Shown here one piece after another: positions 914 through 41,403 of a stretch of 41,427 nucleotides of DNA. The notes under the pieces were generated by a model. The model was not told where the DNA came from. It worked only from the letters and a program-made list of their open reading frames with translations, and searched no databases. The stretch is from positions 1 to 41,427 of the IMG/VR virus record IMGVR_UViG_3300007516_000040; one strand, written 5' to 3'. Source of the stretch: a virus. The translations under genes and the position numbers were made by a program. Position 1 is the stretch's first letter. Each line of letters starts with the position of its first letter.

Positions 914-953
914 TCACTACATATAGACACGAATACACAAGGACACACAACCT

Positions 954-1427: not shown

Positions 1428-1428
1428 C

Positions 1429-2133: not shown

Positions 2134-2320
2134 ATTCAACAAGCTCATTGATCTAAGCACGGACATGATGAAGAAGCTTGCAATCCGTGATGGCTATCTC
2201 GACAAGCTTGGCGTCAAAGAAATGATGCAGAAAGCAGACATGGGCGGCATGGTCAATGCAGTTGACGCACAGGATGACGACAGTGATCACACTGCTGGCT
2301 TGTTGAACAAGAAGAATTAA
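1997..2320 (+). CDS. Unknown small Met-rich helical protein
   Basis: 107 residues with ATG at 1997 and a good GGAG ribosome site seven bases upstream. It is Met-rich and helical (ISLICGMMERLRIQ, LSTDMMKKLAIRDGYLDKLG) with an acidic C-terminus (DAQDDDSD). The first 137 bases overlap the preceding gene in a different frame, unusually long for this compact but mostly 1-30-base-overlap genome. The stop abuts the ATG of the nuclease gene at 2321. Function unknown; proximity suggests it is expressed with the recombination module. Confidence 0.55.
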   Translation: MALMKVRDAEQLMKSMHTDPRMISLICGMMERLRIQHDQMMLFASEFNKLIDLSTDMMKKLAIRDGYLDKLGVKEMMQKADMGGMVNAVDAQDDDSDHTAGLLNKKN

Positions 2321-3457
2321 ATGCTTACACTCACAGACATACAAAACAACATCGAGTACCGCATTTCACTTGTTCCAATGGCAGATGCATTCAAGCTATT
2401 GGAACAAGGCCAAGTCTTCTATGACTTTACTAAAATAACAGCCGCTTACACATGCCCAACCTGGGGAGTACTACGCTATGGCAAACACCTTTCTGATCTA
2501 CCCCTCTCTACTGGTGGACGGTCACTTGCCATTGAATGTGGGTCCGCATGTCACGACTTCTTTGCCGCAGTACGGTTATGGACCTTACTTGAACGTTATT
2601 CAAATGGTACGTCCGAACACGCACTTGTCAACGCACACGCAATCAAACTCTTCGGCAAAGACCGATGGGAATCTATGCTGTCCATCCCACAAGACAGCGA
2701 CAGAGTAAACAACTGTCAACTGTTCGCACTCGATGCACTTCACACGTCAGGGTACTACGATGATCCGTCAGACCGCAAGCGCACTCTATCGAATATGGAA
2801 ACCGCATGTATTTCCTACGCTGATCGTTACCTCGCTGCTGATCTACCTGTATTGGTTCGTGGCAATCTCATTGGCGTAGAGATACCGTTTGTTCTCAAGG
2901 TTGAACGCATTGCTACGGTTAACAAAGCTCAATTAACAGAATGGCACGCACTGGCAACAGCCTATTACTGCGGACGCATTGACGGCATTCACGATTACGG
3001 CGGTTCCGCTATGGTAGGTGAAAACAAGACCGCTGCTTCACTCTCTTCTGCATGGAGAACAAGCTTTGCAATCTCACATCAAATCACAGGCTACACCATT
3101 GCAGGAACTTGCCTCCTTAGAGAAGAAGTCTCCAATGCTCAAGTCATGGGAGTACAGATTCCACTTCCACGTGATGCTTTCAACGGCATTGTCTTCCACC
3201 CTGAGACACGCACCGAATCTGATCGCTTACGATGGGCCGAATGGTTTTTCGGCGGTATCGAAACATACGAAGGGTACATGGATCGCCCAACTGAAGCGCC
3301 CCGTTATTCGCATTCTTGCAACCGCTACTTCTCTGCCTGCCAATTTATCCCGTTTTGCAGTCTTACCCGAGAAGAACAAACTGACGCGCTAACAAGTATG
3401 CGACATGATGAATGGTCGCCGCTGGATCACTTGAAAAAGAAAGCTGTAGAGGAATAA
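2321..3457 (+). CDS. Cas4/RecB-type PD-(D/E)XK exonuclease with Fe-S cysteine set
   Basis: 378 residues. The nuclease core is visible as GRID221GI, then E234-N-K236 (the E-x-K element), then Q254-x-x-x-Y258 (QITGY), the order expected for RecB-family nucleases. One N-terminal cysteine (C45, in TCPTWG) and three C-terminal cysteines (C333, C340, C346) match the 4Fe-4S clamp of Cas4/AddB-like enzymes. In phages such a nuclease usually resects DNA ends for recombination. Here it is followed by a Sak4-like ATPase and a DUF669-like ssDNA-binding protein, which supports that role. The ATG directly follows the previous stop. Confidence 0.85.
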   Translation: MLTLTDIQNNIEYRISLVPMADAFKLLEQGQVFYDFTKITAAYTCPTWGVLRYGKHLSDLPLSTGGRSLAIECGSACHDFFAAVRLWTLLERYSNGTSEHALVNAHAIKLFGKDRWESMLSIPQDSDRVNNCQLFALDALHTSGYYDDPSDRKRTLSNMETACISYADRYLAADLPVLVRGNLIGVEIPFVLKVERIATVNKAQLTEWHALATAYYCGRIDGIHDYGGSAMVGENKTAASLSSAWRTSFAISHQITGYTIAGTCLLREEVSNAQVMGVQIPLPRDAFNGIVFHPETRTESDRLRWAEWFFGGIETYEGYMDRPTEAPRYSHSCNRYFSACQFIPFCSLTREEQTDALTSMRHDEWSPLDHLKKKAVEE

Positions 3458-3460
3458 CAC

Positions 3461-3703
3461 ATGGCTAAGTTTGAAGTTGTCAAAGCAAAGCAAGACAATG
3501 GCAAGGACTGGGGACAAATTGAATTAGATAACTTTAATTCGCTAGACCTTGAAGATGATGAAAACGTTATGGACATGGCGGACTGGCCGTGGATGGTGAT
3601 TAACATGCATGAGAGAGAAGATAATAACATCCTTGCATGGTGCTGTACGCAAGAAGATGCAGACATGATCACTACAGCACTCAATAAGCACCATGCCCCC
3701 TAA
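3461..3703 (+). CDS. Small acidic protein of unknown function
   Basis: 80 residues, three bases after the nuclease gene, with its end overlapping the ATPase gene by 11 bases. It is strongly acidic in the middle (SLDLEDDENVMDMADWPWMV) and ends ILAWCCTQEDADMITTALNK. Its place between a nuclease and a recombinase ATPase suggests a role in the same process, but no domain is recognisable. Confidence 0.7.
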   Translation: MAKFEVVKAKQDNGKDWGQIELDNFNSLDLEDDENVMDMADWPWMVINMHEREDNNILAWCCTQEDADMITTALNKHHAP

Positions 3704-4478
3704 CATCATTGTCAACAAGTCTAAGGGCACAATCAAACGTGTATCCATGTTTCTCTGGGGACTGCCCGGTTGCGGTAAGACACACTTTGCAAATACCGCA
3801 CCGGGTAAACGTCTATGGATTAACTTCGATCCAGATGGCACGTCAGCTCTAGCGTACAGTGAAGACACTCTTGTACTAGATTACAGTGCTGAAACACTTG
3901 GATACATGGAACAGTGCAAGACGATGAACCCATTCGATCTTGATAGTATTCTTAAGAACGATCCATCAATTCAAACAGTGGTGATAGATAGTGTCTCACG
4001 ATTTGTGAGTAATGCAGTACAGTTCTCTATTGGCCGCGCGCCAGGAGCTACGTTTGAAAATCCCGGCCCTGCAGGCTACGGTTTTCGAAATCGTTTTACA
4101 ATTGGCCTTGTTAATGGAGTACTTATTGCAACAGGAAAACACAATAAACACGTTATTTTCATTGGTCACGAAGGACAACCACAAACCAACGAATCCGGTG
4201 TAATCCAAGCAATCTCCATCCTTCTTGGCGGCGATCTGCAAGTTACAGTACCTCAACAAATCTCTGAAGTTTGGCGTATGACTGACAACGGTCTAGAACG
4301 TCGTGTTACCGTACGCCAGATTGGCCTTGCTAAACCTATGAAGACACGCATGTTCGACACTACGAGTGGCTATGACTTCATTGCGTCTAACAAGGTCAAT
4401 GCTTCCAAAGTTGACCTTGCCGTTCTATTTAAGGAGTGGCAAGACGGCAACTATGAGAAGCTAAAACTACCTACGTGA
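3693..4478 (+). CDS. Sak4-like / AAA_24 RecA-fold ATPase
   Basis: 261 residues. Walker A is G23-L-P-G-C-G-K29-T30, and Walker B is TVVID99S following an SIQ strand. The pattern of a short N-terminal leader, P-loop, a strand with NFDPDG, and VIDS matches phage nucleotide-binding proteins of the AAA_24 / Sak4 type. These act as single-strand annealing or strand-exchange partners in phage recombination. It sits between an end-resecting nuclease and a candidate ssDNA-binding protein. Bases 3961-3998, which encode the Walker B strand, recur almost exactly at 38712-38749 in an unrelated setting. Confidence 0.8.
   Translation: MPPNIIVNKSKGTIKRVSMFLWGLPGCGKTHFANTAPGKRLWINFDPDGTSALAYSEDTLVLDYSAETLGYMEQCKTMNPFDLDSILKNDPSIQTVVIDSVSRFVSNAVQFSIGRAPGATFENPGPAGYGFRNRFTIGLVNGVLIATGKHNKHVIFIGHEGQPQTNESGVIQAISILLGGDLQVTVPQQISEVWRMTDNGLERRVTVRQIGLAKPMKTRMFDTTSGYDFIASNKVNASKVDLAVLFKEWQDGNYEKLKLPT
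3961..3998 (+). repeat. 38-bp segment shared with 38712-38749
   Basis: The segment matches 38712-38749 at 36 of 38 positions (differences at 3965 and 3980), same orientation. Here it is coding and covers the Walker B strand of the ATPase. The distant copy runs across a stop codon in a different frame, so shared protein function cannot explain it. Confidence 0.85.
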
Positions 4479-4518
4479 TCTAGCTAGATACACACACACA
4501 ACAGAAGAGAGAAGACAA

Positions 4519-4950
4519 ATGGCTGACGAAAACAACGCTCCCGAGCTTGGTTCGATCTTTGAGTTCTCACAGGACATTGCTAACGCGGAAGCCCCGCCGC
4601 CGCTGCCTGCTCGCTCTTATATCGGCACTTGCACAGGCGCGCTTGCTAAGACGAACAAGAACGGTGCTGCTTACGGCGAAATCAAGTTCACGATTGCGCC
4701 TGATCAGTTTCCGCCTGACTTCGCGGCTGTCCAGAAGGATGCGGTGGACCTGTTCTACCGCTTCGTTCCGCTCACCGACGATACGCGCTCGCGCTACCAG
4801 CTTCGCAAATTCTGTGAGAACATGCGTGTCTCGGCTGGCAAGCGTCTTGATCTGAACGACTTCATTGGTAAGACTGCCACACTGGTAGTTGGCACCTCCG
4901 AATATCAGGGCGAGAAGCGCGGAGAAATCAAGTCCGTCGCACTCGCGTAG
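4519..4950 (+). CDS. DUF669-like single-stranded DNA-binding protein
   Basis: 143 residues. The Pro/Ala-rich leader (EAPPPLPARSY) is followed by a compact beta-rich domain (IGTCTGALAKTNKNG, AYGEIKFTI), then RYQLRKFCENM, GKRLDLNDFIGKTATLVVG and GEKRGEIKSV. This arrangement, with the FIGK-x-A-x-LxVG stretch, resembles DUF669-type phage proteins, which are thought to be OB-fold ssDNA-binding proteins. The spacer before it (4479-4518) is a CA-rich run with AGAAGAGAGAAGA as ribosome site. Its codons are somewhat richer in G and C than the neighbours, as is common in highly expressed genes here. Confidence 0.65.
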   Translation: MADENNAPELGSIFEFSQDIANAEAPPPLPARSYIGTCTGALAKTNKNGAAYGEIKFTIAPDQFPPDFAAVQKDAVDLFYRFVPLTDDTRSRYQLRKFCENMRVSAGKRLDLNDFIGKTATLVVGTSEYQGEKRGEIKSVALA

Positions 4951-4952
4951 GC

Positions 4953-4981
4953 TTGACTATATATACAACGTAGCGTAAGAG
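4953..4981 (+). promoter_or_regulatory. Possible weak promoter
   Basis: GGC-TTGACT at 4953 has the same left context as the strong promoters. The hexamer 17 bases downstream is TAAGAG, a poor -10 box. It precedes a hairpin and the gene at 5049. Weak support. Confidence 0.3.
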
Positions 4982-4983
4982 TG

Positions 4984-5016
4984 TGCCTGCGGATCGGCTG
5001 ATCTGGTCCGCAGGCA
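4984..5016 (+). other. Perfect 10-bp hairpin in leader of the 5049 gene
   Basis: TGCCTGCGGA at 4984-4993 pairs perfectly with TCCGCAGGCA at 5007-5016 around a 13-base loop. It is followed by AAGTTTC, not a T run, so it is not a standard terminator. It lies 32 bases before the ATG at 5049 and could protect or process the transcript, or be bound by a protein. Confidence 0.6.
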
Positions 5017-5048
5017 AAGTTTCAATCAACACACTAGGAGAGTTCATT

Positions 5049-5291
5049 ATGGCTTCCCCCACACTGCCGGTCTCCGGCAAGCCCAAGCGCAAGGTCGGCA
5101 ACCGTGTTGCCAAGGACAAGGTTCTATTCCTCATCTACAAGGGTGAGTTTCAGGGTGACGTTGAGGTCGTGACTACGATTGGTCTGGATTTCATTGACAA
5201 GGTGATGGCCGATCCGACGCTCAAGTATAAGAAGGTCGTGATTCCGTCCAAGAAGCGAGCGGCCCAGGTTACGGATGCTCCGGCTGTCTAA
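5049..5291 (+). CDS. Small basic protein, probably abundant
   Basis: The ATG at 5049 has an AGGAG ribosome site and gives 80 residues. The frame is open back to 4983, but that would place the hairpin inside the gene. The protein is Lys-rich with a beta-alpha character (DKVLFLIYKGEFQGDVEVV, FIDKVMADPTLKYKKVVIPSKK). Its G/C-richer codons resemble those of the DUF669-like gene just upstream. It is the last gene before a strong terminator. No family recognised; a nucleic-acid-binding role is a guess from charge only. Confidence 0.75.
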   Translation: MASPTLPVSGKPKRKVGNRVAKDKVLFLIYKGEFQGDVEVVTTIGLDFIDKVMADPTLKYKKVVIPSKKRAAQVTDAPAV

Positions 5292-5312
5292 CCTGTACTA
5301 ACACGTATACGG

Positions 5313-5347
5313 ACGGGCAGAGAGTGGTAGCATTCTCTGCCCGTTTT
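5313..5347 (+). terminator. Strong intrinsic terminator
   Basis: ACGGGCAGAGA (5313-5323) pairs perfectly with TCTCTGCCCGT (5334-5344) around a 10-base loop, followed by TTTA. It closes the operon ending at 5291. The tRNA begins only about eight bases further on. Confidence 0.85.
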
Positions 5348-5355
5348 ATGTCTGG

Positions 5356-5430
5356 GCCGTGGTAGCACAGCGGTAGTGCAGTTGCTTTGTAAGCATCAGG
5401 TCGGGAGTTCAATCCTCTCCCACGGCACCA
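5356..5430 (+). tRNA. tRNA-Thr (anticodon UGU), CCA encoded
   Basis: A full cloverleaf can be folded. The acceptor GCCGTGG (5356-5362) pairs with CCACGGC (5420-5426), followed by A and an encoded CCA. The D arm is GCAC/GTGC. The anticodon stem GTTGC/GCATC has one U-U mismatch, with the loop at 5386-5392 holding TGT at 5388-5390. The T arm GGGAG/CTCTC has one G-U pair and a TTCAATC loop. It would read ACA, a codon used often in these genes, which fits supplementing a host that prefers other Thr codons (inference). Confidence 0.93.
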
Positions 5431-5446
5431 ACAACAAGGAGACAAC

Positions 5447-5704
5447 ATGGAACTAGATAGCGTGCCTGTCATTATACCTATGGCACACGAACTAAACAGA
5501 GGCGTACACGCTGGATCACATAGCACCGCAAGCCGCGTAGTCATTCGCACTAACCTTCAAACACGCACGCTTATCCAAACTTGGGCTGAACATTTACAAA
5601 TCTCAGAGGCAGAGTTCATGCGAGCAGCTAGTTATAACATGGCAAAAGCACTCGAAAAACGCAGCAAAGGAAAAGACAATGACCACCACAGTAATCGAAG
5701 TTGA
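5447..5704 (+). CDS. Unknown small protein, possible DNA binder
   Basis: 85 residues with an AAGGAGACAAC ribosome site directly after the tRNA. The C-terminal half (RVVIRTNLQTRTLIQTWAEHLQISEAEFMRAASYNMAKALEKRSKG) looks like a helical domain with a strand before it, loosely like ribbon-helix-helix proteins: a basic strand, then two helices. Its end overlaps the next gene by 26 bases. Assignment to a family is not possible from sequence alone. Confidence 0.6.
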   Translation: MELDSVPVIIPMAHELNRGVHAGSHSTASRVVIRTNLQTRTLIQTWAEHLQISEAEFMRAASYNMAKALEKRSKGKDNDHHSNRS

Positions 5705-5891
5705 CGAAGACGTATTTCAGATCACAACACAACACTGCGACGGTACAGTGTCCGTCGATCTAATCATGGGTCGTGACACATACGACCAGCACTACCATAT
5801 GAACATAGGAATTAAAAATGACGGAGAACACACAGCCGTTCATTCAGGACGAATTGCAAACACAAGCAATCACTCTTGGATGTGGCACTAA
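5679..5891 (+). CDS. Unknown small protein overlapping the helicase start
   Basis: 70 residues, ATG at 5679 with AAAGGAAAAGACA upstream. The N-terminal half is plausible beta structure (VIEVDEDVFQITTQHCDGTVSVDLIMG). The last 25 residues are read from the same bases as the N-terminus of the helicase in another frame (74-base overlap). It is Thr-, His- and Asp-rich. It is either a genuine coupled small gene or a partly fortuitous frame. Confidence 0.45.
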   Translation: MTTTVIEVDEDVFQITTQHCDGTVSVDLIMGRDTYDQHYHMNIGIKNDGEHTAVHSGRIANTSNHSWMWH

Positions 5892-7092
5892 CGACCGCAT
5901 CGTTTGCGTCACCGGACCTGCAGGTACCGGCAAGACGACTATCATGCTGCAAATCTATAATGCATTCGTAAATGCAGGTCACAAGGTAGCAATTGCTGCA
6001 CCTACAGGCAAAGCAGCCAAGCGTATCTCAGAAGCTACCGGACTTCCCGCTGTTACGCTGCACAGGCTACTCGAATACACACATCCGGGCGATCCTGACC
6101 CTAAGACTGGCAAAGTAACAGGCGTTTCTGTACCGCGGCGTGGTCCCGAGAATCGCCTTGAGTACAGTGTCGTGCTTGTTGATGAATACAGCATGATCAA
6201 TAATGAACTTGACCGCACGTTGCTTGATGCTATCCCTGCTGGTGGACTTGTGCGTTGCTTTGGTGACATTAACCAGCTTCCTCCAATCGAAAACACTGGA
6301 TTCAACGGACCTCCTGCTGGACCTAGCGCATTCACGCGACACTTGAAAAACTTCCCTAGCGTTAAGCTTGAAAAGATTTACCGGCAAGGCGAAGGCAGCG
6401 GAATCGTAACGAACGCAGCACGCATTCTTAAAGGTTGGGTTCCGCAACAGGCTGATGACTTCCAAATGGTGATTGGCAAGAACCCAGTTGAAACTGTTAT
6501 GGACATGATCATGGCGGAAGGGGCGAAATTCCATACACTAGACTGGCAGATCATTACACCGACGCATATGGGATGGACAGGTACACGCGCATTGAACTTG
6601 AATATTCAAGAAATGCTGCAAGGTGAGAAGATGCATGAAGCACATGTCATGCCTCGCACACGTTATGACAAGGTGAAGTCTCTCGTACTCATTCCCGGTG
6701 ATAAGATTCTCTGGACTAAGAATGACTACCACTTAGAAATCTACAACGGTGAAACAGGCATCGTTAAGAAGTTCGAGCACGACCAAGTATTCATTGATTT
6801 CGGTGACAGAGAAGTTGCTATTCCTCCACACGTTGAGTACATCGCAAGTGATGGATCAACTAAGAATTACGATCCACGCACCACTATCAACCTTGCATAC
6901 GCTGTTACGACACATGCTAGCCAAGGAAGTGAATACTCGCAAATCGCGTATATCATGGACAAGTCTAGCAGCATTCTACATGACCGCAGCAACTTCTACA
7001 CTGCAATCACACGGGCACGTTACAAGACTACAGTAGTGACCGATCAGCGTAGCTTACAGAGGGCAGTTTCAACTTTGAAGGTGCGATTCTAA
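5818..7092 (+). CDS. RecD/Dda-like superfamily 1B DNA helicase
   Basis: 424 residues; ATG at 5818 with AGGA upstream. Walker A is G33-P-A-G-T-G-K39-T-T, and motif Ia follows as IAAPTGKAAKRISE. Walker B is VLVD122-E123-Y-S-M. A FGDINQLPPIE segment matches motif III (GD-x-x-QLP). The C-terminal part has TTH366ASQG (motif V-like) and FYTAITRAR (motif VI). This full set and order is typical of RecD-like / Dda 5'-3' helicases. It probably unwinds DNA at the fork or during recombination, alongside the polymerase and DUF3987 protein downstream. Confidence 0.92.
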   Translation: MTENTQPFIQDELQTQAITLGCGTNDRIVCVTGPAGTGKTTIMLQIYNAFVNAGHKVAIAAPTGKAAKRISEATGLPAVTLHRLLEYTHPGDPDPKTGKVTGVSVPRRGPENRLEYSVVLVDEYSMINNELDRTLLDAIPAGGLVRCFGDINQLPPIENTGFNGPPAGPSAFTRHLKNFPSVKLEKIYRQGEGSGIVTNAARILKGWVPQQADDFQMVIGKNPVETVMDMIMAEGAKFHTLDWQIITPTHMGWTGTRALNLNIQEMLQGEKMHEAHVMPRTRYDKVKSLVLIPGDKILWTKNDYHLEIYNGETGIVKKFEHDQVFIDFGDREVAIPPHVEYIASDGSTKNYDPRTTINLAYAVTTHASQGSEYSQIAYIMDKSSSILHDRSNFYTAITRARYKTTVVTDQRSLQRAVSTLKVRF

Positions 7093-7093
7093 C

Positions 7094-7705
7094 ATGACAA
7101 GACTTGTCCTTTTCAATGGCCCTCCCGGCTGCGGCAAGGACACGATCGTACGCGGGTTGACGCAGTACCTCAAGTTCTCACACTTGAAGTTCGCTGCGCC
7201 AATCAAGCGTATGGCGTGTGGATTGCTTGACTGTGACATGTCATGGCTTGAAGCGAACAAAGACACGTTCATCATACCGTTTGGTTACAAGCACGACATC
7301 ACACTCAGACAGTTTTTAATTGAGTTGTCTGAGAAATTCTTCAAGCCTTTATATGGCGATAACGTGTTCGGCAATCTTTTATGGAATGAGGTGAAACGTG
7401 CTCCGAACAAGCTTGTACTTGTTTCTGATTGTGGCTTCCATAGTGAAGTACATCGTGTTGTGGGAAATGCAGGGAAGGCAAACTGTCTCATTGTTCGAAT
7501 TCATCGCAGCGGACACAACTTTGTTGGTGACTCTCGTAGCTATCTCGAAGATGGGATATGTAAAACAGTAGACGTCTACAACACACATACGTCACATTGG
7601 TTGACAATTGCTAGCTTACGTGTTATAATGAATTCATACAAGGGAATAGAGAAAGAATTCCTAAAGGAGCCTGAATGGTTGCGCGATATTCCATCCGCCC
7701 AGTAA
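7094..7705 (+). CDS. Deoxynucleoside monophosphate kinase-like P-loop protein
   Basis: 203 residues, one base after the helicase stop. The N-terminal P-loop is G9-P-P-G-C-G-K15-D16-T. The internal VLVSDCGFHSE resembles the SD-x-R-F-x-x-E segment of phage dNMP kinases, and the length is close to theirs. Such enzymes phosphorylate dNMPs to raise dNTP pools for phage DNA synthesis, which fits the next-door polymerase. Substrate specificity cannot be read. A consensus promoter lies inside the 3' third of the gene. Confidence 0.75.
   Translation: MTRLVLFNGPPGCGKDTIVRGLTQYLKFSHLKFAAPIKRMACGLLDCDMSWLEANKDTFIIPFGYKHDITLRQFLIELSEKFFKPLYGDNVFGNLLWNEVKRAPNKLVLVSDCGFHSEVHRVVGNAGKANCLIVRIHRSGHNFVGDSRSYLEDGICKTVDVYNTHTSHWLTIASLRVIMNSYKGIEKEFLKEPEWLRDIPSAQ
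7601..7629 (+). promoter_or_regulatory. Consensus sigma70 promoter upstream of the polymerase genes
   Basis: TTGACA at 7601-7606 and TATAAT at 7624-7629 with a 17-base spacer. The spacer shares TTACGTG before the -10 box with the promoter at 487. It would start a transcript just ahead of the small gene at 7675 and the polymerase at 7959. Confidence 0.75.
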
Positions 7706-7959
7706 TTGAATGTTGCATTGCTAAGCCATCACAGAGTGACTTAGCTTCTCTGCTGCAATATAAATACAAACTCGATCCATGCAAGCCTAAACCAGACGGT
7801 GAAGATCGCGTATTCACATTCTCATATTACACTACAGAGCTTGCACGTAACATGCCAAAAAACAGCAAAGAACGTAAAGAAATTGCTCGCATTCTACGTG
7901 CTAGGCACTCTTACATCTGGACACTCTTTCACCAAGTGATGACACTTGAGGATTGGTAA
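7675..7959 (+). CDS. Small basic protein ahead of the polymerase
   Basis: 94 residues with an AAAGGAG ribosome site. It overlaps the kinase gene by 31 bases, and its TAA shares a base with the polymerase ATG (TAATG). It is basic with many aromatic residues (YKYKLDPCKPKP, RILRARHSYIWTLFHQV). It could be a polymerase accessory factor by position only; no motif supports a specific job. It is the first gene after the 7601 promoter. Confidence 0.7.
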   Translation: MVARYSIRPVIECCIAKPSQSDLASLLQYKYKLDPCKPKPDGEDRVFTFSYYTTELARNMPKNSKERKEIARILRARHSYIWTLFHQVMTLEDW

Positions 7960-10424
7960 TGACACCTCTGCAAACGAACACATCGCAGCATATCCTGTCT
8001 CTAGGACTTGAATACAAAGTTCTAGGGACAGGATCACCTTCCTCAAAGATCGCTATCATAGCAGAGTATCCCGGCGAAACGGAAATCATGCTAAAGCAAC
8101 CGCTCATTGGACAAAGCGGTCGCTTGTTGTGGGAGAAGCTTGGCTCTATTGGAGTGAAGAGGGAACAATGTTACATCACAAACGTAGTCAAGGACGCAGT
8201 AACAGTAAAGGTCGTGGACGGAACAAGGGAAAGGCAACTAGCGTCAAAAGAGGACATGGCGAAGTGGCAATCCGTCTTGATGCGGGAGTTATCGCAACTC
8301 TCCAACGTCGAATATATCTTGCTCCTAGGGAATGCAGCACTGGAAGCAGTGACAGGACATAAAGGCGTCAATAAGTGGCGTGGTTCTGTTCTAGACTTCT
8401 CTTGTGGTATGGGCTTTGCACGCAATGGTAAGGTGCTCATCAGTTACAATCCTTCGTACATGATGCGTGACCCTACTGTAGAAGTGCACTTCACTATTGA
8501 TATGCAACGATTCAAGCGTCTTCTCAATGGCACGTACAAGCCTCACCCCATCAACGAAATCATCAATCCAACAAAACGTCAGGCCATCGACTACATGCGA
8601 ATGCTTCGTGCAGACAAGAAGCCTGTCTCATTCGACATTGAAACAATTGCTAACGAAACAGCGTGCATTGGCTTTGCTAACCAAGCACATGAAGGCATGT
8701 GCATCAATTTTCGCACGTTTGAAAGCACCTCAAAGCTAGACATGCACGATGAAGTGATCGTGCGTCAAGAAATGGCAGAGTTATTTGCTGACCCATCTCT
8801 CACGTTCGTAGCACAGAATGGCAACTTCGACTCATATTGGTTGCGTTTCAAAGATCGTTTCAAAACAACAGTACACTATGACACGTTGCTGGCACATCAT
8901 ACGCTCTATCCCAACATGCCTCACTCTCTTGCATTCCTCACCACGTACTACACGGAACACCCGTATTATAAAGATGACAAAGATGGATGGAAAGATGTAG
9001 GCGACATCAACAAGTTCTGGCGTTACAATGTCAAAGACTGTTGCATCACACACAAAGTGTACACAGAAAGCAAGAAGGAGCTAATTCAACAAAAGCTCTA
9101 CGACTTCTTTATGTCTCATGTCATGCGGTTGCAACCTCACCTTGTAGAGATGACAAGCAACGGCATTCTTGTTGATACTGCTTTACGTACAACGCTTGAA
9201 AAAGACTTGTCACAACAGCTTGTTGTCCTAGAGAAGAACTTCATAGACAAAGCACAACTTGCTGCAAGTGATCCAACTCTAATTATCAATCCACGTTCTT
9301 CTATGCAGATGAAGAAGTTCTTTTTCGATACACTCAAGCTAGTCGGTCACGGTAAAAAGACTGATATAGACAACCGCAATCGCATTCGCTCGCATCCGAA
9401 CACATCTCAGATTTCGCGTGAAATGCTTAAAGCCTTAGATATTTACAAAGAAGAACACAAATACTACAGTACGTATGTCCAAACAACGCTCGACTACGAT
9501 AATCGGATGCGTTGTGAATGGAAACAATGGGGAACTACTTCTGCCCCGGGTCGTTTGTCATCTTCATCTGTCATGTGGGGAAGCGGGACAAATCTACAGA
9601 ACCAGCCTGAACGAGCGCGAGAGATGTTTATTGCTCCTGCGGGATATGGCTTTGTGTATTTCGACTTGTCCCAAGCTGAAGCACGTTATGTCGCTCTCGC
9701 TTGGGGCATCAAAGGGCTCCTAGAAAACTTCGAGCGTGCGCGTCAAGATCCTGAGAATTATGATATACATCGACTTAATGCATCAAGCATCTTTAATGTC
9801 CCTTATGCAGATGTACCTAAAGAAGACTGGACAGAAGACCACAAACCAACGCTACGCTATCAAGGCAAACGTAGTGTACACGGTTTCAACTATCGACTCA
9901 TGCCTGAAACTGCTGCTGTTAAGTTTCAAACATCACTAGCGGAAGCTACTCGGGCACACAGACTATATCACGCAACATTTCCCGAGATTGGCGTTGCATG
10001 GCGTGAATTACGTGAACGTGTTGCGCGCGACAAAGTCTTATACAATGCCTATGGTAGGCGTTGGATATTACTGTCCAGAATCGACGACACCATTCTCGAT
10101 CCAATCGTTGCGTTCGAGCCTCAATCCTCAATTGGGGATAAAGTTTGCGAGGTTATTTATCTATCGCATGAAGACAAGGAATGGCCTAAGTCCAATAATG
10201 GTCTTGAAGCCGCAATCACTCTCAACATCCACGATGCTCTCATTGCTGTGTGCAGACTTGAAGATATGGACACAGTGGCACGTATCATGCACAGGCACGC
10301 CACAAAGCCGCTTATCGTCCGAGGTCAGGAGCTTGTTATTCCTGCCGATGTGAAGATTAGTGTACCAGACGACAACGGCGTGCATCGCTGGTCAACAATC
10401 ACTAAGAAGTGGAAAGGTCTATGA
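7959..10424 (+). CDS. Fusion of uracil-DNA-glycosylase-like domain, 3'-5' exonuclease and family A DNA polymerase
   Basis: 821 residues from the ATG at 7959. Residues about 20-200 form a family 4-type UDG-like domain: AE36-YPGETE, PLIG51-QSGRLLW, and ISYN164-PSYMM where an HPS motif is expected. Residues about 215-365 form a DEDDy exonuclease: FD226-I-E228-T, NGNF290-D291 and Y356-NVKD360. The polymerase follows: motif A D569-LSQAEAR, motif B R633-YQGK637-RSVHGFNY645, and motif C H758-D759-A760. Catalytic Asp residues of exonuclease and polymerase are present. Two deviations stand out: Asn for His in the UDG motif, and Ala for Glu after the motif C Asp. It is the replicative polymerase of this phage. 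Confidence 0.92.
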   Translation: MTPLQTNTSQHILSLGLEYKVLGTGSPSSKIAIIAEYPGETEIMLKQPLIGQSGRLLWEKLGSIGVKREQCYITNVVKDAVTVKVVDGTRERQLASKEDMAKWQSVLMRELSQLSNVEYILLLGNAALEAVTGHKGVNKWRGSVLDFSCGMGFARNGKVLISYNPSYMMRDPTVEVHFTIDMQRFKRLLNGTYKPHPINEIINPTKRQAIDYMRMLRADKKPVSFDIETIANETACIGFANQAHEGMCINFRTFESTSKLDMHDEVIVRQEMAELFADPSLTFVAQNGNFDSYWLRFKDRFKTTVHYDTLLAHHTLYPNMPHSLAFLTTYYTEHPYYKDDKDGWKDVGDINKFWRYNVKDCCITHKVYTESKKELIQQKLYDFFMSHVMRLQPHLVEMTSNGILVDTALRTTLEKDLSQQLVVLEKNFIDKAQLAASDPTLIINPRSSMQMKKFFFDTLKLVGHGKKTDIDNRNRIRSHPNTSQISREMLKALDIYKEEHKYYSTYVQTTLDYDNRMRCEWKQWGTTSAPGRLSSSSVMWGSGTNLQNQPERAREMFIAPAGYGFVYFDLSQAEARYVALAWGIKGLLENFERARQDPENYDIHRLNASSIFNVPYADVPKEDWTEDHKPTLRYQGKRSVHGFNYRLMPETAAVKFQTSLAEATRAHRLYHATFPEIGVAWRELRERVARDKVLYNAYGRRWILLSRIDDTILDPIVAFEPQSSIGDKVCEVIYLSHEDKEWPKSNNGLEAAITLNIHDALIAVCRLEDMDTVARIMHRHATKPLIVRGQELVIPADVKISVPDDNGVHRWSTITKKWKGL

Positions 10425-11680
10425 GTAGCCCACTTCCTTATTTCCCGCCGGGAACATTCGTTCACAACTACATGGAGGCAATGGCGGAAACAGAAACGCC
10501 ATTGATCTACGATTACATATGTGCATTGTGGGTATTGTCTTCAGCGATGGGGCGCAACGTAATTGTCGCTCGCCCATCTGCCCCTGTACATCTCAACATG
10601 TACATCACACTTGTCTCAGAATCAGGGATATTAAGAAAATCTTCTTCAATTCGAGCGGCGGTAAGCATACTGCGACACTTCATGTCCACCACACAATCAT
10701 CAACTTTGCTGATCGAAAGCAAAGTAACAATGGGAATGCTACTCAATGAACTATCCCGCACTACGAGAGAGCATGGTTCTTCACAAATTGTACTGGTTGC
10801 TTCTGAGCTTGCAGCTATGCTTGGACGCGGCACACAAATTGCTGGTATTCCTGCTCTCCTTACTGACCTTTATGATTGTCCTGACGAGCGGAGTGGTGGT
10901 GGGTCGCTCGCGACTGGAGGCCTTAACTTCAAGAATGTCTACTGTTCATTCTTGGCTGGTAGCACCCCTTCTTGGTTGGCAACTTCGGTGCGCCCTGAAA
11001 TTGTGGCAGGCGGCTTCACGTCTAGATGCTATTTCATCAACGGGCGCAATCGCAAAAGACTTGTAGCATGGGGAGAAGAAGCGAAACCTGATGCTGCTGA
11101 CAGACTTGTGAAACAATTGCAGGAGATACAAAATGAAAGCTGTTCCTACTTTCAAATTGGAATTAATTCTTCGGCAAAACAAACATTTACCAAATGGTAT
11201 GCAAATCGCCCCGTCCATAAAGATGTTTACCGAGAAAGTTTCGAGTCGCGAGAAGATGGGCACATCCTTAGATTTGCAGGACTTATGTGTGTTAATGAAA
11301 GAGCTTGGTCTATCAGCGACGATCACATACGTCGCGCGATTGCGTTTGTAACGGAAATTAAACGCTTTGGAACAGAACTCTTCACAGGTACGAAGGCTCA
11401 ACACACCGACCTTAAACTGGCTAAGAAGGTGCGCAATCTCATTCTTTCTAGTGGTAATGGCGGCATCAGTCACACTGATATTTATAGAAGCAGCAGTGTT
11501 TCTGGTCGTAGCGGTAATGAACTCCGCTCACTTCTTTCGATCATGCACGAACTAGACTTAGTCACGAAGCATGAAATCAAAAATATACGCAGTCGGCCGC
11601 GAACGATGTACGTCGCGACCGAATACTTGAAGAACGAATTGTTCTTAGAAGATGTAGCTAGGAAGCTAGGGATTGATTAG
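10421..11680 (+). CDS. DUF3987-like replication protein (helicase-like)
   Basis: The ATG at 10421 overlaps the polymerase stop (ATGA) and has AAAGG just upstream; a GTG start at 10409 is also possible. The 419 residues include LNMYITLVSESGILRKSS, which sits where DUF3987 proteins have their P-loop but lacks a clean GKS/T. Then come VASELAAMLG, LLTDLYDCPDERSG, a CSFLAGSTPSWL strand and GGFTSRCYFI, all in DUF3987-like order. The last about 80 residues look like a winged helix (GISHTDIYRSSSVSGRSGNELRSLL). Such proteins often take the place of a replicative helicase in phages. It is the last gene of the + strand half. Confidence 0.7.
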   Translation: MSSPLPYFPPGTFVHNYMEAMAETETPLIYDYICALWVLSSAMGRNVIVARPSAPVHLNMYITLVSESGILRKSSSIRAAVSILRHFMSTTQSSTLLIESKVTMGMLLNELSRTTREHGSSQIVLVASELAAMLGRGTQIAGIPALLTDLYDCPDERSGGGSLATGGLNFKNVYCSFLAGSTPSWLATSVRPEIVAGGFTSRCYFINGRNRKRLVAWGEEAKPDAADRLVKQLQEIQNESCSYFQIGINSSAKQTFTKWYANRPVHKDVYRESFESREDGHILRFAGLMCVNERAWSISDDHIRRAIAFVTEIKRFGTELFTGTKAQHTDLKLAKKVRNLILSSGNGGISHTDIYRSSSVSGRSGNELRSLLSIMHELDLVTKHEIKNIRSRPRTMYVATEYLKNELFLEDVARKLGID

Positions 11681-35883: not shown

Positions 35884-35931
35884 GTTTGTGCTCCTTCGAG
35901 CGTTTAGTTGAATGTGTGTGCAGAGTTATAC

Positions 35932-35958
35932 CTTATATATAGCAGTGCGATGTGTCAA
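35932..35958 (-). promoter_or_regulatory. Late-operon promoter candidate
   Basis: On the minus strand, TTGACA (35958-35953) is followed after 15 bases by TATAAG (35937-35932), within a TATATATAAGG run. The spacer is short for sigma70, which might make it factor-dependent. It lies about 50 bases upstream of the first late gene and no other good late promoter was seen. Confidence 0.5.
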
Positions 35959-36223
35959 TTATTTTCAAGAAAAGGCTCCGAAAAGCTTGACGCGATATAG
36001 GAAAATGTGATATTTACTACCCAAGAAAGCAGCGGAAAAGAAAGCAAGAAAGAAAGCAAGAAGCAAGAAAGAAAGTACGTGGTCCGAAGGACACCTCGCG
36101 TGGCTGCCAGGAACATGCGCTTTTTCGAGTTTTTCTCTTATATGTTTTATATAACAATCTCCCGACGTGCGAAGCGCGGCGGGACCTGCATCCGTGCCTT
36201 TTCTATTCTACAGCATAGCAACA

Positions 36224-36267
36224 CTACAACACAGCACTACAACACAACACAGCAATACTACAACACA
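36224..36267 (+). repeat. Imperfect CTACAACACA repeats
   Basis: CTACAACACA occurs at 36224, 36237 and 36258 within an ACAAC-rich stretch. The same bases are complementary to the TGTTG run near 36573-36585 over 13 positions. Confidence 0.8.
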
Positions 36268-36445
36268 GCAGAAATCGCGAACCTGTGCATTGTTTTTACG
36301 TGGGGGAGTATGGGTGCGGTGTTGGTCTACCCCTGTACGGACATGTGTACGTGGCTGACATGCTCTTTACATCAACGCCGTTACAATCTGCCGTGTTTTG
36401 GTTTTGGCGGGGGGAGTAGGGGTGTTGCGCATGTGGGTGCAGGGG

Positions 36446-36490
36446 GATGCCAGCATTCAGATGCCATTATTTATCGATGCCAGCATTCAG
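36446..36490 (+). repeat. Two 15-bp direct repeats (iteron-like)
   Basis: GATGCCAGCATTCAG at 36446-36460 and 36476-36490, exact, start-to-start 30 bases (about three helical turns). A shorter GATGCCA lies between them. Spacing on one DNA face suits a protein-binding site. Confidence 0.85.
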
Positions 36491-36590
36491 CTACCAATGA
36501 TGTGCGGTACAGTAGAAATAGTCATGCAGTCCCTGTTTGTTAAAATAACGCCGCACTCTTCACGTTTCATGTTGTGTTGTGTTGTGTTAG

Positions 36591-36614
36591 TTTAATTGCA
36601 TGTGTACGAACGAT
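36591..36614 (+). repeat. 24-bp near-repeat, left copy
   Basis: Matches 37878-37901 at 22 of 24 positions. Both contain an ATG followed by codons for Cys-Thr-Asn-Asp, with one synonymous difference. The pair brackets the GC-rich gene at 36811-37722. Confidence 0.8.
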
Positions 36615-36666
36615 GTTTGCATCATGCATTTTTGTGTAAGGTCAATTTATGAAAATTGTGGATAAC

Positions 36667-36695
36667 TTGACTTAAGCTGTTGTTTGTAATATAAT
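36667..36695 (+). promoter_or_regulatory. Strong sigma70 promoter of the GC-rich gene
   Basis: TTGACT at 36667-36672, a 17-base spacer, and TATAAT at 36690-36695. It leaves a leader of about 110 bases before the ATG at 36811. Confidence 0.75.
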
Positions 36696-36810
36696 TATGA
36701 GATAGAAAAGACGTTCTACTTCTACTTGTTCTATGCATCGTTTGATCAGTCGCGCCGACTTGCTGGCAATCGCCATGCGGGCGCTACTTCTATGAGAAAG
36801 TGAACACACC

Positions 36811-37722
36811 ATGGCCACCGTTAAGAATCACGATAATGCCAAGTCCTCCGCACTCAGCAAATTTCTCAGCGCCGGAATCAGCGAAATCGATTTGAGGGGG
36901 CGAGGCGAGGGAAAATCGTCGCTCGCGCTCGCGTATGCAGTCCTCGCGAGTGACGATGCGGACACGTTGTCCTCATGGACTACGATGGTCCGCGACTATA
37001 ATTCGACGGACAAAAATTTGAAAGAACTGTCACGGAACCGCTTCAATGATTACATCAACGGCGAAAATGCATTCGTCGAGACGCTCGGCGATAAGGAACG
37101 CCACACGCAGGACTACCGGAATTTGGTGACCAGACAATTCAAGCGCATGCAATTCGCTGTCGATTTGCATGCGCTGGGTTACCGGCCGTTTCTCATCATT
37201 CGTGAAACGGCGAAAGGCGGCGTCATCGCCAATGTCAAGGGCGGCTCGGACTATGCGCTTCGCCTGTGGATCGCGCGCGGATGGAATGACCAGAAGAGCA
37301 TCACGTCGAAGAGGTCTTCGGACATCGACATCATTATCAGCTTGCGTGCTCAGCAAGTTGGATTAGGTGAAATTTCTTGGGCACAACTCGCGGAGGCAAT
37401 GGCCGGATGGTGTCAGCGGAAGCAAACGTCGCACGTCAAGGCCGCAACAATTACGGCAAGTAAGCCACTCGGCGCGATCAGAGCGGTTCAGAGCATCATC
37501 AATAACGATCCGGCTGCAATCGCACAGCATTTCACAACGGCAGAAAGCCAACTGCTTGTGATGGAAACGGTCGAAGACATCGCCGGTGTTGTGATCAGCG
37601 GCGACGATCCCGAAATGATCAAACTAAGGAAGAATTTCACCGCCGCCGTCGACGCCCTCTGCGAACATTTCCGATCCATGATCAATCGGAAAGCAACACT
37701 TCTGGTGGAAGAAGCTTCGTAA
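36811..37722 (+). CDS. Unrecognised GC-rich single-gene unit (moron-like)
   Basis: 303 residues, ATG preceded by GAGAAAG. It has its own promoter (36667) and terminator (37826) and is visibly richer in G and C, with codons unlike its neighbours. The protein is mixed alpha/beta and charged: EIDLRGRGEGKSSLALAYAV (GRGEGKSS recalls a P-loop but lacks the full pattern), then TRQFKRMQFAVDLHALGYRP, FLIIRETAKGGVIAN, SKRSSDIDIIISLRAQQVG, and a helical C-terminus. It could be a regulator, an anti-defence or exclusion factor, or a replication initiator, as it lies beside the repeat-rich region. None of these is shown. Confidence 0.75.
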   Translation: MATVKNHDNAKSSALSKFLSAGISEIDLRGRGEGKSSLALAYAVLASDDADTLSSWTTMVRDYNSTDKNLKELSRNRFNDYINGENAFVETLGDKERHTQDYRNLVTRQFKRMQFAVDLHALGYRPFLIIRETAKGGVIANVKGGSDYALRLWIARGWNDQKSITSKRSSDIDIIISLRAQQVGLGEISWAQLAEAMAGWCQRKQTSHVKAATITASKPLGAIRAVQSIINNDPAAIAQHFTTAESQLLVMETVEDIAGVVISGDDPEMIKLRKNFTAAVDALCEHFRSMINRKATLLVEEAS

Positions 37723-37825
37723 GCAGATCATGACAAGAAACCTTGTAGGGGTTGCAACGTATGCTACCCTTCTATGCTTGATAGTTTTCTGGTTTTCTGG
37801 ATAGGTGCAAGCTAACAAACAAATC

Positions 37826-37855
37826 AACCCGTTGCAGAAATGCAGCGGGTTTTTT
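37826..37855 (+). terminator. Intrinsic terminator after the GC-rich gene
   Basis: AACCCGTTGCA pairs with TGCAGCGGGTT (one G-U pair) around a GAAA loop and is followed by a T run. It is a textbook terminator that isolates the 36811 gene. Confidence 0.9.
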
Positions 37856-37877
37856 GTTGTCTAAAATCCTACGCTAT

Positions 37878-37901
37878 TTTAATTGTATGTGCACGAACGA
37901 T
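37878..37901 (+). repeat. 24-bp near-repeat, right copy
   Basis: Partner of 36591-36614 (22 of 24 identical). It lies just after the terminator, marking the right edge of the unit holding the GC-rich gene. Confidence 0.8.
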
Positions 37902-38127
37902 CTACTGCATACATATGACGCAAAGCCCACACCAAATAACAGTGCACCTTTCTATGTGAGCGCTAAAATAATAACACAAATACCTAACCCAACGCGTAGC
38001 GCGTGGCTTTGCATGATGTGTCAACTAACTCCACAAACCCAACAAAACGCTGCCCACATTGCACTTTACGCATCACACGTAATAGGTAAATGCACCGTTT
38101 GGACATGCTCCAATATGGCTGCCAAGC

Positions 38128-38156
38128 TTGACATGTGTGCCTGGATAAGTTATAAT
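38128..38156 (+). promoter_or_regulatory. Consensus sigma70 promoter for the right-hand operon
   Basis: TTGACA at 38128-38133, a 17-base spacer, and TATAAT at 38151-38156, both perfect. It drives the genes from 38252 onward. Confidence 0.85.
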
Positions 38157-38251
38157 TATAACAAGAAAGGGAGAATACAATACAAGCAACTACGTCGTAA
38201 GCATCGCACGACGCTAACTAGCGATGCACTCTCTAGCTACTGAGGTAGCAA

Positions 38252-38515
38252 ATGCACAAAACGCGGTTAGTCCGCGCCCTCCCATATATCATTGCAATTG
38301 CGTGCATCCTGTTCATGGCATCTAACGTGCTTGGGCAAGATAAAGCACGCATACGCATATGGCGTGTAACGTACTGGTCCACGTATGAATTACGTGATGT
38401 ACGGGGCAAGCCTACATCATTAAGAGACTGCATCGCTCGGCTTGCTGAAATCTACAAGCAAGAGCGCATCAACACCGTGTACTGTACAGCAGATAGGTTC
38501 CCAGATGAAAGCTAA
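38252..38515 (+). CDS. Small exported or membrane-anchored protein
   Basis: 87 residues with GAGG before the ATG. It has a basic N-terminus (MHKTRLVR), a hydrophobic core (ALPYIIAIACILFMASNVLG) and then a charged soluble part of about 58 residues with two cysteines (RDCIARL, NTVYCTA). The leader could be a cleaved signal peptide ending near SNVLG or an anchor; either places the domain in the periplasm. The two cysteines could form a disulfide. First gene of an early operon: candidates are superinfection exclusion or envelope interference, both inference. Confidence 0.7.
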   Translation: MHKTRLVRALPYIIAIACILFMASNVLGQDKARIRIWRVTYWSTYELRDVRGKPTSLRDCIARLAEIYKQERINTVYCTADRFPDES

Positions 38516-38735
38516 CAACAAGAATAAGTCCGTGCCTGATCTAAGTAATCCGTATGGAGCAGTGTATCGCATTGATGCACTAGAAGCAGAAGCAAAGCGT
38601 CTTGGAGCGTTGCCTCATGCTGAATTCAATTGGGAAATCATTAAACGTTGGCGCACGCGTCAAATCTGGTTGATCTCTCAGCGCATCAATGACATCCGTA
38701 TGCCTCCTAGCATCCGTCAATTCAAACAGTTGTGA
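38505..38735 (+). CDS. Small unknown basic protein
   Basis: 76 residues from the ATG at 38505, overlapping the previous gene by 11 bases; the longer frame from 38442 is discounted because it lies inside that gene. The Lys/Asn-rich start (KANNKNKSVPDLSNPYGAVY) leads into a basic Trp-containing helix (FNWEIIKRWRTRQIWLISQRI). Its last eight codons and its stop lie inside the 38-bp segment shared with the ATPase gene, so its C-terminus may have been replaced by recombination. Confidence 0.65.
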   Translation: MKANNKNKSVPDLSNPYGAVYRIDALEAEAKRLGALPHAEFNWEIIKRWRTRQIWLISQRINDIRMPPSIRQFKQL

Positions 38736-38749
38736 TAGATAGTGTCTCA
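38712..38749 (+). repeat. 38-bp segment shared with 3961-3998
   Basis: 36 of 38 bases match the Walker B-coding part of the ATPase gene. Here the segment is read in another frame as the end of the 76-residue gene, passes its stop codon at 38733-38735 and enters the spacer. It also contributes to a hairpin (GTGTCTCA with TGAGGCAC, about 38742-38761). Confidence 0.85.
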
Positions 38750-38780
38750 AAGCTGAGGCACAACACAAAGGCTAAATAAC

Positions 38781-40043
38781 ATGACCATTCTCTCATTCTT
38801 CACACGCACTACCATTGATGAAGCTTTCATCTTCACGATGGGAGCAAGCGTTAAGGTTAGCAACAATCCAATCGGCTTTTTTGGTACAGGATTGAAATAC
38901 GCTATTGCTGTGACACTACGTCTTAATGGCGAATTCACTATCAAGACGCAAGACAAGCGTTACAACTTTTACAAACGCGAAGAAATGCTCCGTGGTTCTC
39001 CTATTGAGATGATCTACTGTGACGTCTATGGAGCTGAAGGTGTCGCATTCACAACGCTCCGCTGCCCTATGACTGCTGACTACGGCAAGACATGGGAACC
39101 TTGGATGGTCCTGCGTGAACTATACAGCAACACAATGGACGAAGATGGAGAAGTCATCGAAGGTGAATACATGCTGCGTAAGCCTGTCCTCACTGGTGCA
39201 GGTGTGGGCTACAGCGAAGTACCAAAAGAGTACACTCTCATCACTGTAGATTGCTGCGAAGTCCACGCTGAGTGGAATGTGCGTAACATGTACTTCTTGA
39301 ACAAGGCACGCACGCCTATCTGGAAGAATGACCAGCTTGAAGTGTACGCTGGCCGTTCAACTGGCGTCTTCTATCGAGGCATTAACGTAACAAGTACGTT
39401 TATGCCTTCAGAACTCACGTATAATCTGATTGGTAGTTGCCATCTTTCAGAAGATCGTACGCTAGACAGTTACTTAGTAGGACGTGTCATCATCAACAAC
39501 ATCACAACCTGCGAAGATGAAGGAGTGTTGTCTACATTCTTTTCTGCTGTATGTAAAAAGAACTCACGTGAAAATTCAATCACGTACTATGCACATGACC
39601 ACGGCAGCGCTGAATACATGACAGCGCTAATTGAGGCATCTAAAACTCACCCAGATGAAATGCCTAACGCTTTGTTCTGTGTTGCACAGGAACATCTGCG
39701 TGATATTGAACCGAAGAAGATGTACAAGGAGTACGAACCTACAACTGAGGAAGGTATACGTCTACGTCATTGCATTAGGACGTTAGAGCGAGCGAACATG
39801 AACTTTAATCGCTATGAAGTCATTCTTTCGAATGACGTAGCAGGTATGGGGATCATCAATTTCCGACATCGCATCATCTTTCTTAATCCTAAGTATACAG
39901 TGCAGCACGCAGATTGGAAGCGTGCTACTATTGAAACATTGATTGAAGAGTACGTGCATAGTGTTGATGAAGCAGCTGATCGTTCGCGTCAGATGCAGGA
40001 GTCGTACAATCGTGTCATCTACAACTTGATCAAGGAAGACTGA
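38781..40043 (+). CDS. GHKL-type ATPase-like protein with motifs in permuted order and a C-terminal EExxH segment
   Basis: 420 residues with AAAGG upstream. NNPIG32FFG35TG37LKYAIAV resembles the G-x-x-G-x-G loop of GHKL ATPases, while RE113LYSN117TMD120E resembles their N-box (E-x-x-x-N-x-x-D). In standard GHKL proteins the N-box comes first; here the order is reversed. Near the C-terminus TLIE389EYVH393 followed by D400RSRQMQ looks like a degenerate metalloprotease-type helix. It could be a phage effector acting on host protein or DNA machinery. The ATPase assignment is moderately sure, the role unknown. Confidence 0.6.
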   Translation: MTILSFFTRTTIDEAFIFTMGASVKVSNNPIGFFGTGLKYAIAVTLRLNGEFTIKTQDKRYNFYKREEMLRGSPIEMIYCDVYGAEGVAFTTLRCPMTADYGKTWEPWMVLRELYSNTMDEDGEVIEGEYMLRKPVLTGAGVGYSEVPKEYTLITVDCCEVHAEWNVRNMYFLNKARTPIWKNDQLEVYAGRSTGVFYRGINVTSTFMPSELTYNLIGSCHLSEDRTLDSYLVGRVIINNITTCEDEGVLSTFFSAVCKKNSRENSITYYAHDHGSAEYMTALIEASKTHPDEMPNALFCVAQEHLRDIEPKKMYKEYEPTTEEGIRLRHCIRTLERANMNFNRYEVILSNDVAGMGIINFRHRIIFLNPKYTVQHADWKRATIETLIEEYVHSVDEAADRSRQMQESYNRVIYNLIKED

Positions 40044-40044
40044 A

Positions 40045-40131
40045 GTGGCGATACCTGATATTATTCAGGTACGTAACTTCAAATCACTTAAAAGGGCTAT
40101 CCCTATAACTAAAGAAGGAACTATTCAATGA
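40045..40131 (+). CDS. Possible 28-residue leader peptide gene
   Basis: A GTG at 40045, one base after the previous stop and preceded by AAGGAAG, opens 28 codons (AIPDIIQVRNFKSLKRAIPI, then TKEGTIQ) ending in a TGA that overlaps the next ATG (ATGA). The exact coupling at both ends suggests translation. A 7-bp hairpin TACCTGA/TCAGGTA lies within. It may be a real micropeptide or only a coupling device. Confidence 0.4.
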   Translation: MAIPDIIQVRNFKSLKRAIPITKEGTIQ

Positions 40132-41108
40132 GTGCAAACGTAGAACACATGGCATACCGCTTTGCTAATCGCAGTGATACGCCTTGGCACGGCGTCGGTA
40201 CGCCTATCGCACGTAACGAAGAACTTTCTACTGAAGAGTTCCAGAAGCGTGCTGGTGCTGAGTGGCTTGCTCTGAAGCGTAAGTTGTACTTCCGTAGCAA
40301 GCCTGCCCTTCTTGTGCCTGATATCGAAGTGCCTAAGGCATTCGCACTAGCACGTGACGACAATCAGTTCGTGCTCAACATCGTTAGTGAACAGTATAAG
40401 ATCGTGCAGAACAAGGAAGTATTCAACTTCTTTCAAGAATTCTGCAACGCTGGCGATATGGATATGGAAACGGGAGGTGTCCTTGACTATGGAAGAACTG
40501 TGTGGGGCCTTGCTAACATCCGCGAGGGCTTTACTCTCTCCGGAGGCGATCACGTTCAAGGCTTCCTTCTCTTCTCGAATTCCCATGGGGGCAGTGCTGG
40601 TAGAATTAAGTTCACGCCAGTGCGAGTTGTATGTGCAAACACGCTGGCTCTTGCCCTTGGAGGAAGCGGAACTGATTTCCGTATACATCATAAGGCCACA
40701 TTCGATCCAGAGATTGCTAAGACTGCTCTCGGATTGGGGCACAAACAGCTTAGTGAATTCAAGGAGCAAGCCGAGTTTCTAACTACTCGTCGTATGTCTT
40801 CTGTTGCATTCACTGAATTTCTTGAGAAGCTTTTCCCGCCACGTGATGTCGTGGATGAAAAAGGGCGAAGCATTGATACAGTCACGTTCCCGCGTATGTA
40901 CCATAAGTCACTTGCCGCGCTTTCCACTCAGAAAGGCGCGCACATGAGCGAAGGAACATGGTGGCAGGGATACAATGCTATCACTTACGCGATTGATCAC
41001 GACATCACACGCTCTGATCGTGCTGCATTGTTTAACAGTAACATGTTCGGCAATGGCTTTAAGGTAAAGCAGCAGGCGTTGCAGACTGCATTGGAGTTTG
41101 CGCGGTAA
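40128..41108 (+). CDS. DUF932 phage/plasmid-like protein
   Basis: 326 residues with AGAAGGA before the ATG. The sequence follows the TIGR03299/DUF932 pattern: an N-terminal WHGVGTPI and Glu-rich segment, ALARDDNQFVLNIVSEQYKI, the central NIREGFTLSGGDHVQGFLLF, then FTPVRVVCANTLALALGG and a C-terminal WQGYNAITYAIDHD. The family is widespread in phages and plasmids but its biochemical role is not known. G/C-richer, biased codons suggest strong expression. Confidence 0.85.
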   Translation: MSANVEHMAYRFANRSDTPWHGVGTPIARNEELSTEEFQKRAGAEWLALKRKLYFRSKPALLVPDIEVPKAFALARDDNQFVLNIVSEQYKIVQNKEVFNFFQEFCNAGDMDMETGGVLDYGRTVWGLANIREGFTLSGGDHVQGFLLFSNSHGGSAGRIKFTPVRVVCANTLALALGGSGTDFRIHHKATFDPEIAKTALGLGHKQLSEFKEQAEFLTTRRMSSVAFTEFLEKLFPPRDVVDEKGRSIDTVTFPRMYHKSLAALSTQKGAHMSEGTWWQGYNAITYAIDHDITRSDRAALFNSNMFGNGFKVKQQALQTALEFAR

Positions 41109-41113
41109 AACGC

Positions 41114-41142
41114 TTGACATTGTAGCACTTTTAGGCTATAAT
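41114..41142 (+). promoter_or_regulatory. Consensus sigma70 promoter near the window end
   Basis: TTGACA at 41114-41119, a 17-base spacer, and TATAAT at 41137-41142, both perfect. The transcript would start about 20 bases before the ATG at 41170. If the map is circular it would continue into the early genes at position 1. Confidence 0.85.
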
Positions 41143-41169
41143 CATACATAAGAAAGAGAGGGACAGAAC

Positions 41170-41403
41170 ATGAAAGCAACAATCCCTGTCCCTCTCCAAT
41201 CGGGGACACGCATTCTACATCTAAGAGCCGACACTTTAAGTAAGTGTTACATTCTATGGCTGCATCATAACCCTGACTACACGCTAGGCACGTATCTAGA
41301 ATGCGTTGGGACGGTAAGATATACAACGTCACGATACGTCCTGATGCAAGTGAGGAGCGTTTCCGTGTTTACTGAAATCTTAATTCTTTTCCTCTTGGTA
41401 TAG
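41170..41403 (+). CDS. Small unknown protein next to a strong promoter
   Basis: 77 residues with AGAGAGGG upstream of the ATG and a perfect promoter just before. It begins MKATIPVPLQSGTRILHLRA and ends with a hydrophobic stretch (FTEILILFLLV) that could be a membrane anchor. Tyr and Cys are frequent (SKCYILWLHHNPDYTLG). Typical of the first small genes expressed on infection; no family recognised. The remaining 24 bases to the window end show no signal. Confidence 0.6.
   Translation: MKATIPVPLQSGTRILHLRADTLSKCYILWLHHNPDYTLGTYLECVGTVRYTTSRYVLMQVRSVSVFTEILILFLLV

Follow-up and report, generated by a model that had tools for sequence, protein, structure and literature searches.

The gene at positions 36811-37722 (+ strand) of the window, as we call the whole stretch of 41,427 bases of an IMG/VR virus record that was analyzed, is the first early gene of an uncultured, podovirus-like and apparently lytic phage, and it occupies a place that is kept throughout its lineage. 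Its 303-residue product (P0001) is evolving fast and has no match in PHROGs, Pfam, NCBIfam or PADLOC. The best explanation, to which we give about an even chance, is that of an insulated immediate-early unit, conserved in the lineage, for an adaptable host-takeover protein. The gene defines a family of slot proteins that is missing from the libraries and cultured-phage records searched and sits at one fixed place in a widespread lineage of uncultured phages; the fixed position provides a simple rule for gathering many variants.

The rightward gene block of the window (151-11680) codes for an HNH nuclease, an exonuclease, a Sak4-like annealing protein, a single-stranded DNA-binding protein (SSB), a helicase, a nucleotide kinase, a DNA polymerase and a primase-helicase, and the leftward block (35883 to 11681) for the terminase, the portal, a probable capsid protein and the tail. 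The slot gene is the first rightward gene past the divergent intergenic region, and further rightward genes, one of them a DUF932 gene, follow at its 3' side (38252-41403). These probably run on into the block starting at 151, since in the relative G006 (IMGVR_UViG_3300024323_000011, polymerase 67% and terminase 63% identical to those of the window) the DUF932 and HNH genes are on one strand with only 2.3 kb between them. A polymerase-based search retrieved 26 related contigs, and more were found through terminase and DUF932 searches. The nearest relative is G003 (IMGVR_UViG_3300001605_000214), with a polymerase 75% identical to that of the window, and the four nearest genomes are the window, G003, G006 and L138. 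A search of 84,980 bacterial and archaeal genomes found no close member of the lineage, a result that speaks for a lytic life and makes a role as temperate cargo unlikely.

In the seven comparison genomes and in further contigs, the slot, i.e., the first early position beside the divergent region, holds one gene of 260–450 codons. Positional counterparts were identified in G006, G007, G011, G012, G018, G021, L072/L138 and many terminase-anchored contigs, all of similar size, with the same neighbors and raised GC3. Long ORFs in G007, G012 and G018 were rejected as counterparts because they are antisense shadows.

That the gene is an independent expression unit, as the original prediction had it, is upheld by both of its control signals. 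The sigma-70-type promoter (TTGACT-N17-TATAAT, 36667-36695, + strand) has a comparable promoter-like site in several relatives, and the region 35884-38252 contains two sites scoring at least 11/12 when shuffles give an expectation of 0.07. The intrinsic terminator (37826-37857, + strand), with an 11-bp stem and a T-run, deserves the name of textbook terminator that it had been given: its hairpin (37826-37851) folds with a z of -4.4, equaled by none of 200 shuffles, and it is near-identical in G003. Between promoter and gene there is a conserved 5' leader (36703-36810, + strand) whose alignment to G003 scores 53, against 14.6 ± 2.4 for shuffles. In the comparison with G003 the z values were 15.9 for the leader and 27.2 for the terminator, and only 0.7 for the DNA of the gene itself. 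A structured RNA in the leader is unsupported, its folding being equal to that of shuffles or worse. The leader includes a possible upstream ORF of 20 codons (36733-36795, MHRLISRADLLAIAMRALLL), and the corresponding stretch of G003 has no stop codon in the reading frame of the main gene. Among the counterparts scanned, most had a promoter-like site and/or a terminator close 3' of the gene. The promoter scan also located the consensus promoter of the next early unit (TTGACA-N17-TATAAT, 38128-38156, + strand). All five promoters of the window scoring at least 11/12 (487, 7601, 36667, 38128 and 41114) read the early strand and none the late one, a bias found in G003 as well (7 to 0) and absent in G006 and G018.

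The unit appears to hold more than one gene, at variance with its first description as a single-gene unit, because a conserved ORF for a 24-residue, single-helix membrane peptide (37730-37804, + strand, MTRNLVGVATYATLLCLIVFWFSG) is located between the slot gene and the terminator and is kept in G003, G006 and L138. In all four nearest genomes an ORF of 20–24 codons with one helix starts between -4 and +13 bases from the end of the stop codon; a similar ORF was present at just 7 of 706 other gene ends.

Host RNA polymerase would read the slot gene from its near-consensus sigma-70 promoter once the early arm of the genome enters the cell, and its expression would be both early and strong. The conserved leader, the 303-residue protein, the tiny membrane peptide and the terminator would then give an output separate from that of the replication operon. 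P0001 itself would most likely act in host takeover as a soluble factor, binding a host target that varies and belongs to the transcription, nucleoid or defense machinery, and we propose that it changes fastest among the genes compared because of an arms race with that target. The more specific version of this reading, in which a fixed early slot with conserved promoter-leader, terminator and companion peptide carries a host-directed effector that is diversified or exchanged at extreme speed, we put forward only tentatively. Genes of the T7 gene 0.3 type, host-takeover genes of about 120 residues located where the genome of a lytic phage enters first, may be a parallel in their first early position, host-type promoter and fast sequence change. 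The slot differs in being a single insulated unit with a conserved leader and a protein of about 300 residues. First early genes that change fast are well established as a source of inhibitors directed at the machinery and defense of the host.

The divergence of the slot protein is extreme. G003 has a recognizable homologue of P0001 with 22–24% identity, and this pair is the lowest of all gene pairs between the window and G003 (22% vs. 29–75%). The G003 homologue (L037:7291-8215, - strand) is split into two overlapping frames, owing either to a genuine lesion or to a fault of assembly. The slot of G006 has an ORF with a GC3 of 0.66, whose similarity to P0001 was undetectable in spite of the 63% identity of the terminases. 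The first impression that the protein matches nothing was borne out, there being no recognizable family, for it or for its positional counterparts, in PHROGs, Pfam, NCBIfam, PADLOC, PDB sequences or cultured phages. P0001 had no match among cultured phages and plasmids at either the DNA or the protein level, and none in a direct scan of viral contigs with the protein. PHROGs, Pfam, NCBIfam and PADLOC, searched with P0001 and up to 17 counterparts, gave chance-level rows only, among them Herpes_UL51 (0.06), phrog_5334 (0.0065) and phrog_10345 (0.0021), which were rejected as such. The same was true of PDB sequences, for which P0001 as well as the family profile described next served as query.

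Twenty-three of the positional counterparts form one significant profile family (seeded from L133/L104/L095), and those of G007, G018 and G012 a separate one. In the comparison of P0001 with the 23-member family, hhalign gave 14.3, against 11.9–13.8 for unrelated proteins of the window, which is not significant. P0001 therefore cannot be assigned to this profile family with significance, and its wider homology is a matter of positional evidence only. In the G012 slot protein (L055:5920-7128, - strand) there is an N-terminal DnaJ-like segment with an intact HPD motif, under the Pfam cut-off. AlphaFold modeled P0001 poorly (mean pLDDT 54.5), and a fold search with this model found no match. The core family gave a mostly confident model (pLDDT 72, with the core mostly at 75–95), in which the first half is predicted to be helical and is followed by a small mixed domain and, at the C-terminus, a pair of helices. 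Against the PDB its best Foldseek E was 1.8, nothing rising above background, so that structure and remote-homology searches, which had been recommended from the start, yielded no PDB or family match for either P0001 or the core family. Part of Cas8f (best VIA-align Z 5.2) was rejected as a common helical arrangement. Against BFVD, the core-family model had one significant match, A0A6J5NVN4, an uncharacterized protein of similar length from an uncultured Caudovirales phage (Foldseek E 1.6e-4, probability 1.00), along with two weaker matches to proteins of uncultured viruses. The significant match was obtained with L179, a member of the core family, and not with P0001.

One alternative is that the slot works as a cassette site, where the control signals of a fixed early locus are conserved and unrelated genes are swapped, so that the counterparts are not all homologous. 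The control DNA is indeed kept where the gene is not, and the failure to detect any likeness of the G006 counterpart to P0001, at that level of terminase identity, points the same way. However, P0001 has a true homologue in G003, the 23 diverse counterparts make up a single family with those of G007, G018 and G012 in another, and size, GC3 and helix order are alike between the groups of slot proteins (for P0001 and the core family, the likeness in helix order is read on the poor P0001 model). We consider this explanation unlikely.

Equally improbable in our judgment is a narrower one, namely that P0001 is an anti-defense protein, an inhibitor of restriction, CRISPR or abortive infection first made on entry. 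The first early position, the own promoter and the very fast change would all fit. However, anti-defense genes are usually accessory, and the slot gene is found in all relatives examined. In addition, the slot proteins are mostly basic (P0001 has a pI of 8.4) and not acidic like DNA mimics, and the sole PADLOC row, Cas11e, was a weak stretch at chance level (E 0.015, with no single stretch passing), from a library whose models are those of defense proteins and whose coverage does not extend to anti-defense.

The near-identical 24-bp sequences reported to bracket the gene are a real pair, with a chance expectation of 0.00. Copy A (36591-36614, + strand) is 5' of the slot-gene promoter and opens the dyad TGCATG...CATGCA; copy B (37878-37901, + strand) is 5' of the next early promoter and opens TGTATG...CATACA. 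The dyad arms of the two, as read off the sequence, differ by one compensating change. The repeats were not seen in the flanks of G003 as read, and because of this and of their location upstream of early promoters in both cases, they are better taken as regulatory sites shared by the two promoters than as insertion scars. Such sites raise the possibility that P0001 binds an origin or operator and, by way of the dyads, initiates replication or controls both early promoters. Its basic pI and the adjoining conserved divergent region would suit this role. However, the lack of the repeats in the G003 flanks as read, the lack of any helix-turn-helix or initiator match for P0001 and a net charge of only +2 make it quite doubtful. 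The divergent region contains a conserved non-coding block with a G-rich GGCGGGGGGAGTAGGGG element (36345-36422, no strand assigned), which aligns locally to G003 with a score of 48, against 20.9 ± 2.0 for dinucleotide shuffles. The stretch 36000-36600, which may serve as an origin of replication or for packaging, also has repeats rich in purines, ACAACACAGC repeats whose inverted partners lie at a distance, and two G-rich elements.

Returning to the insulated immediate-early unit, its build was first read as that of a moron. A moron is a unit that has come to lie between two genes adjacent to each other in related phages (PMC4378225); further marks are that it is dispensable for the phage cycle and either expressed from a prophage or beneficial to the host. 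The slot gene resembles morons in having its coding region between a promoter and a terminator of its own and a composition unlike that of its neighbors, and differs in that every relative examined has it at this site and in its conserved companion ORF. A cargo gene recently inserted between two genes adjoining in relatives, as had been proposed on account of these signals, the flanking repeats and the orphan protein, is highly improbable, because the comparison with related phages detected no empty site in any relative covering the locus, all of them having there a comparable raised-GC3 gene with the same neighbors and similar composition, and the leader and terminator are common to the window and G003. 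As a warning, odd GC plus a promoter and a terminator are insufficient on their own to call a moron.

The unusual composition that gave rise to the proposal is genuine. The slot gene has a GC of 0.534 vs. 0.474 for the window, only 3.3% of the 912-bp segments across the whole window are equally GC-rich, its GC3 (0.64) is second among 34 genes and it ranks second as a codon-usage outlier. High GC3 is shared within the window by the SSB gene (0.65), a tail-like gene (0.60) and the probable capsid gene (0.58), and the codon-usage outliers also include the probable capsid and SSB genes. Over seven genomes (window included), the slot gene ranks 2/34, 1/36, 2/22, 1/31, 1/27, 1/31 and 3/35 in GC3 (combined p 9e-5). 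Raised GC3 is a trait of the locus lineage-wide, and therefore it gives no date for an acquisition. In all of the five genomes compared, the codon usage of the slot gene was closer to that of SSB plus capsid than was that of any gene of the comparison set, which favors a resident gene with a bias linked to expression over a foreign origin. This fits the five genomes, but the window only loosely: there, three structural genes outside the comparison set score above the slot gene, which is sixth of 34 on the wider list, and the codon choice of P0001 (few AAC and CGT) departs in detail from that seen in the window's highly expressed genes.
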